From Nitrospirota bacterium (GTDB lineage Bacteria; Nitrospirota; Nitrospiria; Nitrospirales; Nitrospiraceae), in contig VBOJ01000073.1 in assembly GCA_005877775.1 (NCBI GenBank), positions 1-48,387 of the forward strand: a stretch of DNA of 48,387 nucleotides, in the 5' to 3' direction. The notes beneath the pieces are model-generated. The model saw only the letters and a list, made by a program, of their open reading frames with translations, was not told the DNA's origin and searched no databases. Positions 1 through 47,901 of this stretch are shown one piece after another. Both the position numbers and the translations under genes were made by a program. Each line of letters opens with the position of its first letter. Position 1 is the first letter of the stretch.

Positions 1-1673
1 CGGAACCAACGCCCGAGCGGCACCGCGAAGCCGTGCTTGGGGCGGCCCAGAATCCCTTCCGGCAAAATCCCGCGGAGCGCGCGTTTGAAAAGATGCTTTG
101 TCCTGCCGTTGCGCAGCTTCAGCTCGGCCGGAATGGTCGCCGCAAACTCGACGAGTTTGTGATCGAGCAGCGGAACTCGAGCCTCGATCGAATGCGCCAT
201 GCTCATCCGGTCCACTTTGGTCAGGATGTCCAGCGGGAGGTAGTGGTGCAGATCAAAGTGTTGCAGCACGGACAGCCAGTTTCCGTTCCCGTTGCTCAGG
301 TGCCCGGTTCCAGGGCGCCCGGGGTCATAGTGTGAAAGCTGTTCGCACACGTCGGGTGTCAGTAGTTTCTGTTGCTCGTCGTGCCTGAAGAGCGTCGACG
401 CATCGAGGTAACGTTCGGGATCAGGCAGCGAGAAATGGCGGAGGAGATTGCGCCCCCTCATCCCATCGGGCATGAGCCTCGACAGAGTCCCGAGCGCCCG
501 CCGAGCGGGAGTCGGCAGGAACCTGGCGCGCCGTTCCCTTCCCTCAACGACATATTTCTCGTACCCCGCGAACAGCTCGTCGCCGCCGTCGCCGGACAAC
601 ACCACCGTCACGTGGTCGGACGCCAGCTTCGAAACCATATAGGTCGGAATGGCGGAGGAGTCGCCGAAGGGCTCGTCCAGATACCAGGCCAGGTCTTCGA
701 GAATGTCCAGCGCATCGGGCTCGAGCATCAGCTCGTGGTGCTCGGTGCCGAACCGTTCCGCCACCAGCCGGGCATGCGGCAGCTCGTTGTACTCCTGATC
801 GCCAAAGCCGACCGAAAACGTCTTCACAGGACCGGAGGTCAGACGCGCCATCGTGGCGACGACCGCGCTGGAGTCGATCCCTCCACTGAGGAAGGCTCCC
901 AGCGGCACATCACTGACGAGATGGAGCCCAACGGACTCCTTGAGCAGCGCTCGTAACTCTTCCCCAAAGTCCTCTTCGGACCGGCCGTGGTCCGGTTCGA
1001 AGCACACCTCCCAGTAGCGCTCGCACCGCAGCCCTTCCCCCGGCGATGCAACAAGCAGGTGCCCTGGCTCCAACTTCCGCACCCCCTCGATGATACTGTC
1101 CGCGGGCGGGGTGGTGAGAAACGTCAGGAGATGGCTGACGGATGGCCAGTTGAGGGTCCGTTCGACCTCAGGTAATTGCAGGATGGATTTGAGTTCCGAG
1201 GCAAAGAGCAGCCGGCCGCCGATGCTCCCGTAGTACAGCGGCTTGATCCCCAGACGGTCCCGTGCCAGCAGCAGGGTTCTCCGACGCTCGTCCCAGAGCG
1301 CGAAGGCAAACATCCCGCGCAGGTGCTCGACACAGTCAGGTCCGTGCTCCTCGTACAGATGGACGATCACCTCCGTGTCGGTGGCGGTCGCAAACGTATG
1401 TCCGCGATCTTCCAACTCGCGCCGGAGTTGCCTGAAGTTGTAGATCTCACCGTTTAACACGACCCAGACGGTGCCGTCCTCATTGCTTACTGGTTGATGC
1501 CCTGTCTCCAGGTCGATGATGCTCAACCGACGCATCGCGAGCCCGACGCCTTCATTTAGATAGATACCCTCGTCGTCCGGGCCGCGATGGAACATCGCTG
1601 CGCACATCCTGCGCAGCTCGTCCACCTCCACAGGCCGTCCGTTCAAGCTCATGATCCCGGCTATGCCGCACAT
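1..1673 (-). CDS. asnB: Asparagine synthase (glutamine-hydrolysing)-type amidotransferase, partial (C-terminus off window)
   Basis: The class II glutaminase domain starts with MCGIAGI, giving the catalytic Cys2 that releases ammonia from glutamine. The asparagine-synthase domain carries the ATP pyrophosphatase loop SGGIDSS near residue 262. About 557 codons are visible of an expected 600-650, and the frame is still open at base 1. The frame is continuous and conserved motifs run throughout. Proteins of this kind inside EPS loci usually amidate a sugar acid or a lipid-linked intermediate rather than supply asparagine to the cell, so the role here is inferred as polysaccharide decoration. The start lies 13 bp after the flippase stop, so it is the last visible gene of the EPS operon. 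A housekeeping asparagine synthetase cannot be excluded. Confidence 0.93.
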   Translation of the reverse strand, partial: MCGIAGIMSLNGRPVEVDELRRMCAAMFHRGPDDEGIYLNEGVGLAMRRLSIIDLETGHQPVSNEDGTVWVVLNGEIYNFRQLRRELEDRGHTFATATDTEVIVHLYEEHGPDCVEHLRGMFAFALWDERRRTLLLARDRLGIKPLYYGSIGGRLLFASELKSILQLPEVERTLNWPSVSHLLTFLTTPPADSIIEGVRKLEPGHLLVASPGEGLRCERYWEVCFEPDHGRSEEDFGEELRALLKESVGLHLVSDVPLGAFLSGGIDSSAVVATMARLTSGPVKTFSVGFGDQEYNELPHARLVAERFGTEHHELMLEPDALDILEDLAWYLDEPFGDSSAIPTYMVSKLASDHVTVVLSGDGGDELFAGYEKYVVEGRERRARFLPTPARRALGTLSRLMPDGMRGRNLLRHFSLPDPERYLDASTLFRHDEQQKLLTPDVCEQLSHYDPGRPGTGHLSNGNGNWLSVLQHFDLHHYLPLDILTKVDRMSMAHSIEARVPLLDHKLVEFAATIPAELKLRNGRTKHLFKRALRGILPEGILGRPKHGFAVPLGRWF

Positions 1674-1685
1674 GGAGTCTTTCCC

Positions 1686-3179
1686 TCAGCTTCCCTGGAG
1701 CTCCTGAGCCCGGGATGAGCCGATGCCCAGTCTCCGGAACCAATCTGCAAGCAGGGCCCATTCGCTCTCACGCACGAGTCCGACGCTGAATGCTATCCCA
1801 AGATACGACACAGTATAGACGAGGCCGGCTGTCACCAATCGGGGCAGCGCCGCAACATCAAGGCTCGAGCTCACAATCACAGTCGCCAAACCTGCCGCCG
1901 CGGCTACGGCTCCGATCCCCAGAAGATTTCTCCAGGGCAGCAGGTCCGCAAGACCAACCTGCCAGAGATATTTCATCCTGACCAGTCCCAGTCCTTTGCC
2001 GAGAGCTGATGCCAGCACCGTGATCAGGACCGCTCCCACCAACTCCAGGGCCGAGAGAAACCAATGAAGACACGCTGCGATCATCAGCAGCCTGATCACG
2101 TTGAGCGCGAGCAGAAAACGGGTTTGGGCGTAGACGCGCAGCAACCCGTCCATAGGAATGACAGCCAGCAGGATGGCGCTCGACCAGACCATGAAGATCG
2201 GGACGCTGGCGAAGTACGCTTCTGTGAAGAGTAAGACGATCAGGTCGCGGGCCGTGACGAGCAGCACTCCGAACAGGGGGAAAAAGATCAGGGCCAGCTT
2301 GCGGATTGTGTCGTGCCACATATCCACCACGGCGTTGTCTCGTCCCTCCTTGATCTCCTCGGCCATCTTGACCATCATCACATTCACGGTCGAGGTCGCC
2401 ATGAGATCAACGAGCGGCACCTGCAGGCATCCCACCGAATAGATGGCGAAGGTGGCGGCGTCAAAGTAGTAAGACACGGCATACTGGTGGAGCGTGTCTT
2501 GCATAACATGGACGAGAACGTAGAGTGCGAACGGGGCAGCATAGATGAATTGATGTTTCAGGAACTCGAGATTCGGCCGAAGTGAGCCGTCGAACTCCTG
2601 CCAGACGTACCATGCCATCGCGCATAACCGGAGCGACGCAAAAGCAATGGCTCCGATGAGGAGCCATTCCAGCTTCGGCACTAGCAGCACGGGCAGAACA
2701 CACAACATGGCTCGCGCGAAGTCGGAGCAAGCGTAAGACGTTGCAGCCAGGCCGTACCGGTTGCGCGAGGTCATTACGATCTCTAAGCCAGACGCCGCCA
2801 GCATCAGCAGAGCAAAGAGACCTAGGAACGGGATCAGCGGAGCGAGCCCGGGATTGCTCATCCACCCTGCGATCATGTCGCCTGCCATTGTCAGAAAGAC
2901 CAGGCAGGCGAGCCCGGCGGCAGCGAGGACCAGCGTGGAATTGACGACATAGCTCCCGCTGTCCCTGACGGCGCGAGGGAGAAAATAAAACAGGCTTTCA
3001 GCCATCCCGAGCTGGACGATCCCGAAGAGGGTCCCATAAATCAGAAACATCTGCTTGTAGGTTCCGAACTCGGCTTGATCGAAAATTCGCACCAGGATGA
3101 TCGGCAGGCAAAACGAGACCGCAAAGCCCAGGGTGCGTCCCGTCATCAAGACCAGAGCCGGCCTAAAGGTTGAGCGCAT
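1686..3179 (-). CDS. Polysaccharide flippase (Wzx/oligosaccharide flippase family)
   Basis: This 497-residue protein is almost entirely hydrophobic, with about a dozen predicted membrane helices starting near residue 10. The first 70 residues have the character of the Wzx/RfbX-MurJ superfamily (an early Arg, then a long helix pair, then an F/Y-rich loop). Such proteins move undecaprenyl-pyrophosphate-linked repeat units across the inner membrane. With the O-antigen-ligase-type polymerase (13982-15340) and the Wzz-type protein (18102-19691) it would complete a Wzx/Wzy export route. The ATG overlaps the 3' end of the deacetylase gene by 17 bp, which suggests translational coupling. The family call rests on topology and general sequence character, so the exact subfamily is open. 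Confidence 0.85.
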   Translation of the reverse strand: MRSTFRPALVLMTGRTLGFAVSFCLPIILVRIFDQAEFGTYKQMFLIYGTLFGIVQLGMAESLFYFLPRAVRDSGSYVVNSTLVLAAAGLACLVFLTMAGDMIAGWMSNPGLAPLIPFLGLFALLMLAASGLEIVMTSRNRYGLAATSYACSDFARAMLCVLPVLLVPKLEWLLIGAIAFASLRLCAMAWYVWQEFDGSLRPNLEFLKHQFIYAAPFALYVLVHVMQDTLHQYAVSYYFDAATFAIYSVGCLQVPLVDLMATSTVNVMMVKMAEEIKEGRDNAVVDMWHDTIRKLALIFFPLFGVLLVTARDLIVLLFTEAYFASVPIFMVWSSAILLAVIPMDGLLRVYAQTRFLLALNVIRLLMIAACLHWFLSALELVGAVLITVLASALGKGLGLVRMKYLWQVGLADLLPWRNLLGIGAVAAAAGLATVIVSSSLDVAALPRLVTAGLVYTVSYLGIAFSVGLVRESEWALLADWFRRLGIGSSRAQELQGS

Positions 3180-4378: not shown

Positions 4379-6031
4379 CTATATTTCTGCGCGTCGCACG
4401 GATGAGAGCCGATCAGCGACTGCATGCGGGATGGCCTCCCGTGCGAGTCTCTTGGTGGCTCGGTCCAACTCGACCGCGCGTTGGCGGATCAGTCCGCCTA
4501 CGTACGGAGGATATAGTTCCACCCGCCCCAGCTCCCGCGCCTCGCGCGCCCACAGGAATTTGTACGATTCGTGGCCGTGGAGCAGGTCATACTCATCGGC
4601 GCCCTCCTCGATTGCGCTCTTGATGGCCAGTCCCATTGCGACCAGACCGACACTGTGCTTGCTGTATCGGGGATCAAACCCGGACTGATAAAAGTAAAAG
4701 GTCCGGTGGTACCTGAAGCCGTACAGCGATGCGGCCGGTTGCCCGTCTACCAGCAGAACAAACAGCCGGAGCCAGCCGCGTTCCAGAGCCAACCGACTCA
4801 GCTCTTCGTGGAATGCCAGAAGACTCTGCTTGTGCAAGCCATCCGAGCCGCCCCTGTCCCGCCAACGCTGGTGGTGCAATGTGATCAGGTTGGCCAGGGC
4901 CACACGCCGTTGCTCCTCGGATCGGACGGATTCGAACTCCACGGTGGCCTGTTTGGCGAGGTTCTTGAGCCTCCGTTGGAAGTTGTACCGGTGCTCCGGC
5001 CCCAGGCTGGCGAGATACGACTCCCAAGAGTGGCCTGACAAATTAATCAACGGACAGAGGTTGATCTTGGCTTCGGAGCAACCCCACCCGCGTGCCTGCA
5101 GCTCCGCGGTAAGCCCGGCCACCAAGCTGGACCGTCGGTTCAGGTGAGTCAGCATGACCATGAGCCGCTCTTGCGCCAAGAAGTCAGCCAGCAGGCGGCA
5201 GATGTCCGGTTCTTTCCCGCGCCGGATGATGAGGTCCAGATAATCGGACCCCACGCTTCCGGTGCCCAGGAATTCCAGCGAGCGGCACGGAATCAAGCCG
5301 ACCACGGTCCAGGATCTGACCGCGAACGGCGCGATCGCCACCAGCTCGCGGCCGCATCGCACCGTGATGAGAAATAGCTTTCGCCCTTCGGCCAGGTTTT
5401 TCCACCAGGTCCACAACCATTCCCAGGTCAGAAACAGGCAGTCGGCGGTGCTGTTTCGGAGCAACTCGTTCCACTCCTGCTTGAGAAGCTCAAACCTCTC
5501 GGGTTCCTGGATGATCTCGACAGTGGTCCCATCCGGGACCTTGCGTTCCGGACCGTTGTCTCCCGCCGCCATGCCTGGTGGGAAGGCGCCGTCATGGTAA
5601 TCCGTGATGTCGATGTCTCTTTGAATCACTCGGGCCGGAACGCCGGCCACAACGGAACGGCGCGGAACGTCTTCGAGGACGACGGCGTTGGCACCGACCA
5701 CCGATTCTGCACCGATGCGAACGGGGCCCAGAATCTTCGCGCCTGCTCCAATAAAGCAACGGTCTCCGACCACCGGGACTCCCCATAGGCGGGAACGACC
5801 ACCGATCGTGACCTGCTGGCCGATCGCCACATTGCTGCCGATCCGGCAACGACTGTGGAGGACGACCCCCATCCCACCGTGGCCGAATGTCGTGCCTTGA
5901 CCGATCTCCGCCGACATCGGGATGGACGAGTTGTAGATCAGAAAAATCAGGCGATGCATAAGCTTGGGAACAATGGGGATGCCCCGCGTATAACACCAAT
6001 GACCGGCACGGTATAAGGTGATAGCATTCAT
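4379..6031 (-). CDS. Fusion: hexapeptide (serine-acetyltransferase-like) domain plus CelD/BcsL GNAT domain
   Basis: Two acyltransferase modules share one 550-residue frame. Residues about 40-140 form a left-handed beta-helix of hexapeptide repeats like the C-terminal half of CysE/colanic-acid acetyltransferases, ending in the typical VVAGVPARVI. After a linker of roughly 30 residues, residues 170-520 match the CelD/BcsL family (GNAT-like, FemAB-related fold), with the early Trp-rich stretch TWEWLWTWW and a late region near HGHESYKF. The first domain would O-acetylate a sugar; the second would transfer an acyl or aminoacyl group. The ATG is preceded by AAGGG at 8 bp. The join is in open frame with no sign of a sequencing shift. 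The fusion is unusual; the substrates are not predictable from sequence. Confidence 0.85.
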   Translation of the reverse strand: MNAITLYRAGHWCYTRGIPIVPKLMHRLIFLIYNSSIPMSAEIGQGTTFGHGGMGVVLHSRCRIGSNVAIGQQVTIGGRSRLWGVPVVGDRCFIGAGAKILGPVRIGAESVVGANAVVLEDVPRRSVVAGVPARVIQRDIDITDYHDGAFPPGMAAGDNGPERKVPDGTTVEIIQEPERFELLKQEWNELLRNSTADCLFLTWEWLWTWWKNLAEGRKLFLITVRCGRELVAIAPFAVRSWTVVGLIPCRSLEFLGTGSVGSDYLDLIIRRGKEPDICRLLADFLAQERLMVMLTHLNRRSSLVAGLTAELQARGWGCSEAKINLCPLINLSGHSWESYLASLGPEHRYNFQRRLKNLAKQATVEFESVRSEEQRRVALANLITLHHQRWRDRGGSDGLHKQSLLAFHEELSRLALERGWLRLFVLLVDGQPAASLYGFRYHRTFYFYQSGFDPRYSKHSVGLVAMGLAIKSAIEEGADEYDLLHGHESYKFLWAREARELGRVELYPPYVGGLIRQRAVELDRATKRLAREAIPHAVADRLSSVRRAEI

Positions 6032-9826: not shown

Positions 9827-10108
9827 TCAGCCTTGGCACCCCGACGGACTGGTCCCACTTCCGATTTGTCTCTGACTCCTGACGAAGTCCGCGATCCGTG
9901 TGAGCGAGCGCACATGCTCCACATCGAGATTCTCAATGGAAATGGTGAGTCCAAACTCCTGTTCCAAATGCACCAGCAAGTCGACAAAGGTCAGGGAGTC
10001 CATCAGCCCCGCCTTTAATAAGTCCGTCTCAGGAGACAGCACGTCCAGCTCGAGCTTGTCCCGAAAAATCGCCGTGATTTTAGGGAGGGTGTCTAGTTCT
10101 CCTGACAT
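9827..10108 (-). CDS. Acyl carrier protein
   Basis: This 93-residue acidic protein has the ACP four-helix pattern and the phosphopantetheine site GLMDSL, with Ser38 as the attachment residue. An EQEFGLTI helix-III segment and a final RIADFV helix complete the fold. The last 15 residues (Gly/Ser-rich) extend beyond the normal ACP end. The start is 1 bp from the carbamoyltransferase stop, so the two are tightly coupled. Dedicated ACPs next to adenylation enzymes are a feature of exosortase-associated EPS loci, where the ACP would hold an activated acyl or aminoacyl group. Here the neighbouring adenylation enzyme is broken, so loading would need another ligase. Confidence 0.92.
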   Translation of the reverse strand: MSGELDTLPKITAIFRDKLELDVLSPETDLLKAGLMDSLTFVDLLVHLEQEFGLTISIENLDVEHVRSLTRIADFVRSQRQIGSGTSPSGCQG

Positions 10109-10109
10109 C

Positions 10110-11255
10110 TTAAAATCCGTTGTGATGAAATATTATTCGCGCACGAGGGACACGGCCGCGAGGCCTGAGCGACGTCTCTTCAGGGTCGCGGGGGAGCCCT
10201 CTGGTTCCGAGGCAGCGGGCGGCGCGGCGGCGGACCCGCACATTCTCCAGGAACAGGACGTCAATTCCCGTGCGCAAGAAGGTCTCCATCGCCTCGCGCG
10301 GCGTATTGACGATGGGTTGGCCCTTGACGTTGAAACTGGTGTTGAGCAGCATCTCCCGCCCGGTCGTTTTCCCGACCGCATACAGCAGACCATGGAAATC
10401 TTTGTTGTCGCGGGCGGACACCGTTTGGACCCGCGCCGAGCCATCGATATGGGTGACGGCCGGCAAGGCCTGGCGACAGTGCTCCCGGACCGGCACGGTC
10501 ATGATCATGTAGGGCAAGGCGGTCATGGGTTCGACCTCAAACCAGTGATGCACTTGCTCGAGGGACACGGCGGGGGCAAACGGCCGGAAGGCTTCCCGCT
10601 TCTTGACCATGACATTGATGCGGTCGCGCATCTCGGGATGCCCCGGATTGGCCACGATGCTCCGATGGCCCAGCGCGCGGGGCCCAAACTCCATTTTCCC
10701 GCGGTACCAGGCCACGACTTGCCCCTCGGCAATGCGCCGCGCCGCCTCCTGGCAGGTCTCCTCGAACGTCGCAAAACGAACGGCATCAATCAAATCTCGA
10801 AATTCACTCAGAGCAGCATTGACTTCTTCCATGGCATAGGCGGGGCCGAAAAAGGGCACCGGCGATCGCTGGTTGCGCACCCGGCCGACCTGCGACGCCC
10901 GATACAGCGCCGCGCCGACGGCCGCCCCATCATCCCCGGCCGCCGGCTGCACATAGAGCTCGTCGAAGAGGCCCGCCCGCAAGAGCTGGCCGTTGGCCGT
11001 GCAGTTGAGCGCCACGCCGCCCGCCAAGGCCAGCCGGCGGAGACCGGTGCGGGCCCCGAAGTGTCCACAGAGGTGCCGCATCACGCGGTCGAGACAGGCC
11101 TGGAGCGCCGCCACCACCACCGCTCCATCGATGACCAAGGCCGCTGCCGCATCGTAGCCCTGACACATCCGATACTCCCGGTCATCGAGCCCGGGCCAGT
11201 GGGCCTTTTGGAAGGCGACCGACTGTTCCAGCCCGCTCACGCCGAGAATCTTCAT
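10110..11255 (-). CDS. Carbamoyltransferase (NodU/TobZ/CmcH family) with a large internal deletion
   Basis: Full-length family members run to about 570-600 residues; this frame has 381. The first 48 residues look like the normal N-terminus of the Kae1-like domain (MKILGVSG, then GYDAAAALVIDG). The sequence then jumps straight to LQACLDRVM, which normally follows some 200 residues later. The lost block includes the HxxxH metal-binding motif of the carbamoyl-transfer site. The rest is well preserved: LAGGVALN (77-84) and a complete YrdC-like half containing KMEFGPRALGHRS (188-199), which forms carbamoyl-adenylate. A 40-residue Arg-rich tail extends past the usual end. The gene is expected to be transfer-inactive. 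The start overlaps the upstream gene by 4 bp (ATGA). Confidence 0.85.
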   Translation of the reverse strand: MKILGVSGLEQSVAFQKAHWPGLDDREYRMCQGYDAAAALVIDGAVVVAALQACLDRVMRHLCGHFGARTGLRRLALAGGVALNCTANGQLLRAGLFDELYVQPAAGDDGAAVGAALYRASQVGRVRNQRSPVPFFGPAYAMEEVNAALSEFRDLIDAVRFATFEETCQEAARRIAEGQVVAWYRGKMEFGPRALGHRSIVANPGHPEMRDRINVMVKKREAFRPFAPAVSLEQVHHWFEVEPMTALPYMIMTVPVREHCRQALPAVTHIDGSARVQTVSARDNKDFHGLLYAVGKTTGREMLLNTSFNVKGQPIVNTPREAMETFLRTGIDVLFLENVRVRRRAARCLGTRGLPRDPEETSLRPRGRVPRARIIFHHNGF

Positions 11256-11647
11256 AGGAGCCCTGACCGGGGCGCCGGTCGGTGCTGCAGGAAGTGTGCG
11301 GTCAGGGTGTTCCGATCAATTTTGCCGCTGGCATTCTTCGGCAGGGTGTCGAACGCCAGCCATAACGAGGGCACCATATACGGCGGCAGGACCTTGCCCA
11401 GTGCTTGCCGGAGCCCGATCGCAGTCACCTCCGTCTCGGGCTGGGGCACGTATGCGCAGCAGATGCGTGTCCCCTCAAAGCCATCCGCATCAATTTTTGC
11501 ACCTCCGTCTTTGAGGATCCTGGCGAGCTGATTGGACAAGCCTTCCAATCGGGCGTAGGTCAATGTGTCGTCGCTCCCGACAACGGCGACAGCCTCAGGG
11601 CAGCGCTCGGCCTGGCCGGTAATGAAGTCCGCTAGCAACTCTGGCAT
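11252..11647 (-). CDS. Adenylation (AMP-forming acyl/aminoacyl ligase) enzyme remnant, core deleted in frame
   Basis: The 131-residue frame joins the two ends of an adenylation enzyme that normally has about 500 residues. Residues 1-49 match the N-terminus (ERCPEAVAV, LTYARL, SNQLARIL). Residues 56-115 match the C-terminal subdomain (DGFEGTRICCAYVP, LPPYMVPS, NASGKID with the catalytic-type Lys109). Everything between is missing, including the P-loop and the core motifs that bind ATP and substrate. The protein therefore should not activate a substrate. It still has a strong ribosome site (GAGGTGG) and overlaps the monooxygenase gene by 16 bp, so it is still placed for translation. Whether it is a relic or a small partner protein is unknown. 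Confidence 0.8.
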   Translation of the reverse strand: MPELLADFITGQAERCPEAVAVVGSDDTLTYARLEGLSNQLARILKDGGAKIDADGFEGTRICCAYVPQPETEVTAIGLRQALGKVLPPYMVPSLWLAFDTLPKNASGKIDRNTLTAHFLQHRPAPRSGLL

Positions 11648-12660
11648 TTAGCCACCTCGCGAGCGCGATTGAATGTCAGAGTTACGTGGTGCAATTCTTC
11701 GGGATTCGTTGGCACGTCTAGAATGAACGTGCGGTACCCTGCGGCCATATAGCCCGCCAACTCTTCCGCAACGCGCTCATAGCTCCCGACCAAATACGGA
11801 CACATGGTCTTATAGTTCTGAAACGGAACGAGCCAATAGGTGTCCTGCGCCGCCTCTCGCCCTATCTCCGACAACTGCTTATGCCAGACAGAATCCGAGA
11901 CCTTCATCGCCAACTGATGGGCAAGCTGGCCCCTGCGATCTTCCGGGAAGCGAGCATGGGCGACCTCCCAGGCCTCTTCCTCGCGCTTACGGCTGATGAT
12001 GCCCACCCGGATTCCTGAATCGACGGACTCATCAGGCGGCTCGCCCTGACATTCCTTCGCCGGCTTCGGATACTTGACCGCGGTCGCGCCCATCGCTTTT
12101 GCGGCTGCCAGGCCCGCTTCGGACGATCCGGATACAAAAATTCCAGGAAACAGCTCCTGCGGCAGAGACGGCGACAGCTTCAATTTGTCCACCTTGTAAA
12201 ATCGCCCGTCGTAGCTCACTATGGCGTGGTTGGCCAGAAGCCGCCTGATGATCGTGGTGTATTCGATAAGTCGTTCGTAGCGTTGATCGTGCGGAGTGGT
12301 GTCATTCAACGCCGTCAAGTCATTCTTGAACCCGCCTGCCACCATATTGAGGTATAGGCGTCTCCCGTGGAGGTACCCGAACGATGTGACCATCTTGGCC
12401 ACCGCGTAGGGATGCATGTAGGCCGGCTGGACCGCAACAAGCGGACAGAGCGACTCGGTCTGCTGGATGATGATCTGGGAAACCAGCCACGGATCGACCA
12501 GGGAGTTGTCGGTGTATACGAGGATGCCCCTGCACCCCGCCTGTTCGCTCCACCGTGCAACATCCACAACATTTCGGACATAGGCCGTGGGGTCGGCGCC
12601 GCTGGATTGCGGACAGGTCGAAAAGATCTCGATGCCTGCGTCAAGCATGACGTTCTGCAT
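11632..12660 (-). CDS. LLM-class flavin-dependent monooxygenase (alkanesulfonate monooxygenase-like)
   Basis: This 342-residue protein has the luciferase-like monooxygenase TIM barrel. Visible elements are the SEQAGCRGILVYTDN strand, the VAVQPAYMHP segment, LNMVAGGF, a DGRFYKV strand, and FVSGSSEAGLAAAKAMG, which binds the FMN phosphate. The overall pattern is closest to SsuD-type enzymes, which use reduced FMN and oxygen. No flavin reductase is nearby. LLM proteins also occur as tailoring enzymes beside adenylation enzymes and carrier proteins in natural-product clusters, and this gene overlaps the adenylation remnant, so oxidation of a carrier-bound group is a reasonable guess. It appears intact. 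Confidence 0.88.
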   Translation of the reverse strand: MQNVMLDAGIEIFSTCPQSSGADPTAYVRNVVDVARWSEQAGCRGILVYTDNSLVDPWLVSQIIIQQTESLCPLVAVQPAYMHPYAVAKMVTSFGYLHGRRLYLNMVAGGFKNDLTALNDTTPHDQRYERLIEYTTIIRRLLANHAIVSYDGRFYKVDKLKLSPSLPQELFPGIFVSGSSEAGLAAAKAMGATAVKYPKPAKECQGEPPDESVDSGIRVGIISRKREEEAWEVAHARFPEDRRGQLAHQLAMKVSDSVWHKQLSEIGREAAQDTYWLVPFQNYKTMCPYLVGSYERVAEELAGYMAAGYRTFILDVPTNPEELHHVTLTFNRAREVAKCQSC

Positions 12661-46788: not shown

Positions 46789-47901
46789 CTACCCGATGAT
46801 GACTTCGAGCAGGCGCTGGTGAATGCGGCGGACTCGTTCAAGCTGGCCTTTGGCCGGAAAACGCTCATAGAACCCTTCGGCCCGAAATTCTTTCGTCAGC
46901 CCGGCCCAAGGCTTGAGGGTATCCGCGAAGGGTTTGGGGGATTTGTCTAGCTCCCACTGCCCCATCAGCTTGCGGTCCACGATGAGGTCGTCCAGCACCC
47001 GGATCAGCGCCTTGAGCGACACGTCGCGCGTGAAGGTGTACCGCTCATTGTTCCCCCAGACCTCGCTCATGACCTCTTTTGCACCTTTCAAATAATCCCG
47101 CACGAGGGCGTAGCACTTGTCGGTTCTCGTGCCGAGGTGTGACTCGATCCAGCGACCGTGGTGCTTCACCAGCTTGTGTAACTCGTTGAACATCTCTGAC
47201 TGGAGAATCCATTTCTCCTGCTTGCTCCGCCCCCCCAATCGATTGATCTTGTACTGGAGCGGAGAGTCGGCCTCGCCATAGAGCAGGTTGACCACTTTCG
47301 CCGCGAACTTCTTCTCCGGACTTTCCCACGAAACCTTTTCGTAGAGGTCTACCAAGTGGGAGCGGTTGATGCGCGTGTGCGTGGAGTTGATGATGACGAA
47401 CATCTCCGTCGCAAACTCAGCGCTCCGGCCGTCGAAGAGCACGCAGGGCACCTCGACCTTGTCGATTTCGTCCGGGTGATGCTCTCTGAAGAAGCGCAGC
47501 CCGGCGATTCGGTGCTGGCCGTCAATGATCAGATACTTGCCCTTCGGCTCGCTCAGGTGCCCGATGGAGTCGGAACCATCCAGCTTGCGGAAGTTCAAGG
47601 TTTCATCGGTGAAGAGCAGCACGGTGCCAGGCACCATCGGCTGCGCGACCACGGTCTCATAGAAATTGACGATCTGTTTGATCTTCTGGCGATTCAGGAC
47701 ACGCTGAAAGCTTCGCTCGTTTCGTTCGATGCTCGAAATGAATTGGGCGACCTCATCATGCTCCGAGATTCGGCCCTGCGGGATCTCTTCTCCCTCGAAG
47801 TAGTATCGACTGGTAAACCGAACCTTGTCCAGAAGGTCGGCCGCCTTATAGGAAATGAAATAAAAGATGCTGTCTTTCTGCTTTACGCGCGTCGCAAGCA
47901 T
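46789..47901 (-). CDS. DGQHR-domain protein (DndB/DpdB-like)
   Basis: The 370-residue product has the signature KYLIIDGQHRIAGLRFF near residue 125 and a following FVIINSTHTRINRSHL. This is the DGQHR domain of DndB-type proteins, which regulate DNA phosphorothioation, and of DpdB in 7-deazaguanine DNA modification. No dnd or dpd genes are in view, so the role is open. The ATG has AAGGAG ahead. PolX lies upstream on the same strand, 25 bp away. Confidence 0.9.
   Translation of the reverse strand: MLATRVKQKDSIFYFISYKAADLLDKVRFTSRYYFEGEEIPQGRISEHDEVAQFISSIERNERSFQRVLNRQKIKQIVNFYETVVAQPMVPGTVLLFTDETLNFRKLDGSDSIGHLSEPKGKYLIIDGQHRIAGLRFFREHHPDEIDKVEVPCVLFDGRSAEFATEMFVIINSTHTRINRSHLVDLYEKVSWESPEKKFAAKVVNLLYGEADSPLQYKINRLGGRSKQEKWILQSEMFNELHKLVKHHGRWIESHLGTRTDKCYALVRDYLKGAKEVMSEVWGNNERYTFTRDVSLKALIRVLDDLIVDRKLMGQWELDKSPKPFADTLKPWAGLTKEFRAEGFYERFPAKGQLERVRRIHQRLLEVIIG

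Follow-up and report, generated by a model that had tools for sequence, protein, structure and literature searches.

Likely recent loss of two enzyme cores by in-frame deletions in overlapping genes of a Nitrospirota polysaccharide cluster

Two overlapping genes, encoding an adenylation enzyme and a carbamoyltransferase, have each lost the part that codes for the catalytic core in an assembled polysaccharide gene cluster of a soil Nitrospirota bacterium, and both deletions keep the reading frame. The best explanation, to which we assign a probability of about 0.6, is that both enzymes were lost recently, by in-frame deletions in an operon with translational coupling, so that a side branch of the exopolysaccharide cluster would now be disabled. 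Ordinary gene loss is thus the most likely process.

Organization of the locus

The stretch analyzed here (the window, 48,387 nt) is a contig of a metagenome-assembled genome (MAG). The two remnants lie between an intact luciferase-like monooxygenase (LLM) gene and intact genes for a carrier protein and an acyltransferase (Table 1). Elsewhere in the window, positions 4379-6031 encode a 550-aa protein that fuses a hexapeptide serine-acetyltransferase-like domain to a FemAB/GNAT-type domain, and a DndB-like (DNA-sulfur-modification-associated) protein is encoded at 46789-47901, near the window end and outside the polysaccharide cluster.

Table 1. Features of the operon and the two deletion junctions (window coordinates)
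Feature	Position	Strand	Evidence
GNAT-like acyltransferase, intact, syntenic with L031	8614..9762	-	Pfam Acetyltransf_9 (weak); alignment with L031 12409-13506
Acyl/peptidyl carrier protein, intact, DSLTF phosphopantetheine site	9827..10108	-	Pfam PP-binding, E 4.8e-11
Class III carbamoyltransferase remnant, 381 aa	10110..11255	-	Carbam_trans_N 276-346 of 346 only, plus full Carbam_trans_C; 720-bp deletion vs C115
Junction of 720-bp in-frame deletion, carbamoyltransferase gene	11105..11112		7-bp overlap of BLAST blocks and base-level comparison
Adenylation-enzyme remnant, 131 aa	11252..11647	-	Pfam AMP-binding and AMP-binding_C; DNA flanks match L031 and C115
Junction of ~408-codon (~1.22 kb) in-frame deletion, adenylation gene	11494..11502		L031 homology stops at 11502, C115 homology at 11494
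GAGGTGG ribosome-binding site	11652..11658	-	4 nt before the stub ATG, read directly in the sequence
Luciferase-like monooxygenase (LLM), intact, overlaps adenylation gene	11632..12660	-	Pfam Bac_luciferase, E 9.6e-34; 75 related loci

The stub joins the two ends of one adenylation enzyme

The adenylation remnant (the stub) is an open reading frame of 131 codons with an ATG start, and its product joins the first ~50 residues of a stand-alone amino-acid adenylation enzyme of ~538 residues to the last ~80. It overlaps the LLM gene by 16 bp and shares an ATGA overlap with the carbamoyltransferase gene, the next in the operon; together with the GAGGTGG site, these features agree with the original prediction that the frame, ribosome site and operon overlap had been kept.

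In Pfam searches, stub residues 12-51 matched positions 4-44 of 384 of the AMP-binding profile (E 1.5e-4, below the gathering score), and residues 55-109 matched positions 22-76 of 76 of the AMP-binding_C profile (E 4.7e-6, above the gathering score). A phmmer search against the PDB matched both ends to the same NRPS adenylation chains, e.g., 6mfy (E 8.7e-18). At the DNA level, a single alignment of window 12647-11502 with L031 8066-9214 (73%) runs from the LLM gene into the first part of an adenylation gene that is intact and 538 codons long, so that the N-terminal region of the AMP-binding family is present in the stub by both profile match and DNA continuity. On the other side, window 11494-11106 aligns without gaps (83% DNA) to C115, a contig binned in the window's own MAG. 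These flanks place the junction at about 11494-11502. Both stub halves derive from one gene, as had been proposed from the sequence, and the comparison with full-length enzymes assigns both to the same family.

The loss is larger than the 370-380 residues first estimated: measured against the full-length ortholog L039 (538 aa), ~408 codons are missing. They include the TSGSTG P-loop (L039 residue 174), the core and the hinge motif GYRIELGE (L039 residue 434), and the ATP-binding P-loop/core motifs (TSGSTGxPKG etc.) are absent from the stub. The first ~21 positions of AMP-binding_C are also gone, and the stub has no complete C-terminal subdomain with hinge, despite retaining the catalytic Lys of the GKIDR motif (K109). 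With the P-loop, core, hinge and beginning of the C-terminal subdomain all missing, the product cannot be an adenylation enzyme.

Full-length relatives

Scanning GTDB contigs with an LLM alignment yielded 75 loci. In about 50 of these, the gene directly after LLM encodes an adenylation enzyme of ~530 aa; the ~50 loci come from Nitrospirota, Acidobacteria, Gemmatimonadota, Planctomycetes, Proteobacteria, Actinobacteria and other phyla. L039, which lies on the same contig as L031 (Nitrospirae NS_12), exceeds the score threshold of TIGR01733, the model for amino-acid adenylation. Intact orthologs at the same place in relatives (L039/L031 and the ~50 loci), together with C115, where the adenylation gene's 3′ part is intact, support the prediction of an in-frame deletion from a full-length gene.

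None of the 75 loci has a short adenylation form comparable to the stub, the form that the original prediction had suggested looking for in sister strains. The sole other clearly shortened adenylation gene among them, after the LLM gene of a Verrucomicrobiota MAG (L113, 8038-9243), lacks 405 nt (135 codons) when compared with L046; this independent deletion also keeps the frame and took out a smaller, different middle part. One further candidate, L108, was rejected because its gene is broken by an N run.

The LLM gene and an overlapping stand-alone adenylation gene form a pair that is conserved in the ~50 loci, often with a carbamoyltransferase gene nearby. For the LLM-adenylation-carbamoyltransferase set, as for short adenylation remnants, a literature search turned up no paper. 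The pair is a widespread module across bacterial phyla, and is more worth following than the stub itself.

A second in-frame deletion in the carbamoyltransferase gene

The neighboring carbamoyltransferase gene is gutted as well, which the original prediction had not seen. The reference is C115 (L026; a G000 contig; positions 1-3068, i.e., 3068 bp with a 46-bp N run), where an intact carbamoyltransferase gene (586 aa) follows the intact 3′ part of an adenylation gene, an arrangement that matches the gene order of the window; the DNA of the two is 83-88% identical to that of their window counterparts. The matching blocks are window 10083-11112 and 11106-11494, and between them exactly 720 nt (240 codons) of C115 are missing, in frame. 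The remnant thus joins the first ~50 residues of the 586-aa enzyme to residue ~290 onward. Only about 7 bp of sequence is shared at this junction. A short imperfect GTGGCGGC-type repeat occurs at each end of the lost piece and is read as Val-Ala-Ala in one and the same frame; slippage between its copies would thus automatically give an in-frame deletion.

The remnant matches just the last fifth of Carbam_trans_N, and the YrdC-like domain is kept whole (Carbam_trans_C 1-169 of 170, E 6.7e-68). In GdmN, H133, H137 and D156 are three of the four iron ligands of the Kae1-like domain, which performs carbamoyl transfer (PMC9633730). Residues H139, H143 and D158 of the C115 version align with these ligands and fall within the lost 240 residues. 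The remnant therefore lacks a Kae1-like domain with its H, H, D, D ligand set, and the D333 region is retained.

The window carbamoyltransferase has Tyr at residue 34 (QGYD), the site of the proposed general base H27 of GdmN, as do L026 and L030. Carbamoyltransferases from other phyla have His there (QGHD), and the Tyr of the Nitrospirota lineage occurs in intact copies too.

Selection on the remnants and age of the deletions

Between the window and C115, YN00 gave dN/dS values of 0.11 for the carbamoyltransferase N-part, 0.16 for its C-part and 0.28 for the adenylation C-part. At sites invariant in seven outgroup carbamoyltransferases, ~8 changes occurred in the window alone versus ~4 in C115 alone, a non-significant difference that gives a hint of possible relaxed selection on the window remnant; the lack of a statistically clear relaxation counts against the preferred explanation. 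Because dN/dS is low and the remnants show no clear decay, the deletions either arose recently relative to the split between the window and C115 or are absent from the living genome. If real, they would be recent, which fits the earlier suggestion of a recent deletion.

The alternative implied here is an assembly artefact, in which the genes are intact in the living genome and their middles dropped out of the contig when chimeric reads or a mixture of strains entered the assembly of a complex metagenome. We regard this as less likely than a real loss, but its chance is appreciable and it is the most probable of the rivals. Besides the absence of clear decay, it draws on the divergent contig C115, which spans exactly the same stretch in the same MAG, and on related MAG contigs whose LLM, adenylation and carbamoyltransferase genes have small deletions that break the frame. 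Frame-breaking indels of 19-89 nt were found in L096 (35 and 41 nt), L112 (89 nt), L106 (19 nt), L044 (31 nt) and L041 (35 nt), so deletion errors are plausible in such assemblies; this size class is biased toward frame breaks, since small in-frame gaps hide within single BLAST hits. However, the losses of 720 and ~1220 nt far exceed those indels and usual short-read insert sizes. Neither junction shows a repeat longer than an assembler k-mer (at the adenylation junction, whose intact left side is known from more distant relatives only, no clear repeat was seen), and simple misassembly through such a repeat was therefore rejected. Along the retained blocks the window and C115 differ by 10-19% in DNA, so dropping a piece from C115 would not yield the window. 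Moreover, the other window genes that were scanned appear intact, and none has truncated domains like those of the two remnants.

Both window deletions keep the frame, which also argues against an artefact, but chance alone would give this in 1 of 9 cases, a point that weakens the frame as evidence for a real loss. All three large deletions found in the surveyed LLM, adenylation and carbamoyltransferase genes (405, 720 and ~1220 nt) are in frame, for which the chance is 1/27, a figure from a small, post hoc sample in a survey prompted by the window events themselves.

The L096 indels lie in an LLM gene (1155-2074) whose identity to the window is a mosaic of ~87%, ~96% and ~75%, a pattern that may reflect recombination, a pseudogene or an assembly error. 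The record name of L096 indicates the same soil campaign as that of L039.

A retained short protein or a decayed duplicate

The stub might alternatively be expressed, alone or with the 381-aa carbamoyltransferase remnant, and kept for a non-catalytic role such as carrier-protein docking. The retained frame, ribosome site and overlaps, the conserved remnants and a confident AlphaFold model of the C-terminal part (pLDDT 82-92, residues ~61-120) would suit such a role. That confidence says only that a known sub-fold can be modeled, and the pLDDT below 50 for the N-terminal 58 residues, which might count against the idea, means little in turn, since the run had alignment rows for the C-terminal part only; in alignments extended to the N-terminal part, that part came out misplaced. 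Against a retained role stand the absence of a comparable short form from all 75 loci, the truncated start of the C-terminal subdomain and the loss of the carbamoyltransferase core next door, which favors loss of the pathway. We therefore consider a retained role very improbable. For the same reasons, the part of the original prediction that saw the stub as a possible scaffold for the nearby carrier protein found no support, and with no comparable short form it was rejected as a lead; the recent deletion, its other part, stands. Least probable of all is a paired miniaturization of neighboring enzymes, in which both gutted genes would make short folded proteins with non-catalytic roles in the carrier pathway.

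A variant of the preferred explanation holds that the window copy is a decayed duplicate and that an intact paralog, represented by C115, does the job in the same cell. C115 sits in the same MAG bin and has the same gene order; but its G+C content is lower in the matching blocks (0.60 and 0.54 versus 0.65 and 0.64 in the window), and no other part of a second cluster was found in the MAG. With a MAG contamination of 2.65%, C115 might instead come from a sister strain or species. A duplicate is accordingly improbable. No near-identical copy of the locus beyond C115 was found among 396 genomes of the phylum and 27 genomes reached via the loci, mostly from one soil project.

Discussion

A recent loss of both enzymes would bring these observations together as follows. 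The ancestral operon probably comprised the LLM, a stand-alone amino-acid adenylation enzyme, the carbamoyltransferase and the carrier protein. Judging from these families, it may have served as an accessory branch: the adenylation enzyme would have activated an amino-acid-derived unit for loading on the carrier, and the unit would have been oxidized by the LLM and carbamoylated. Two independent deletions would then have taken out the catalytic cores: the adenylation gene would have lost ~1.22 kb and the carbamoyltransferase gene 720 bp, the latter probably by slippage or recombination at the short Val-Ala-Ala-coding repeat. Because the adjacent carbamoyltransferase was gutted too, loss of the pathway is indicated. 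The gene overlaps suggest translational coupling, in which frame-keeping deletions would still let ribosomes reach the carrier-protein gene and the genes downstream. Frame-breaking deletions would be costly for the carrier-protein and acyltransferase genes, and therefore frame-keeping alleles would be those that remain.

The locus thus offers a compact example of likely pathway loss through frame-keeping deletions in two overlapping genes. It also cautions that MAG contigs with large in-frame deletions give plausible-looking short open reading frames.

Both stub ends belong to the stand-alone NRPS-type amino-acid adenylation enzymes (TIGR01733), which resemble DltA and the exosortase-A-associated ligase TIGR03098. 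Compared with these enzymes, the stub has no catalytic core, neither P-loop nor hinge, and a C-terminal subdomain whose start is missing. The carbamoyltransferase remnant shares a whole YrdC-like domain with the class III O-carbamoyltransferases TobZ, GdmN and NovN, and the intact C115 enzyme matches GdmN with an E value of 6e-115; relative to this class, the remnant is without 240 residues of the Kae1-like domain, including three of its four iron ligands. Pseudogenes of a known kind arise in bacterial operons with overlapping genes when an internal deletion keeps the frame. The window resembles them in its clean junctions, its intact neighboring genes and the intact orthologs found elsewhere, and differs from them in that two adjacent genes are hit, both in frame, and in that a full-length sister contig is present in the same MAG.
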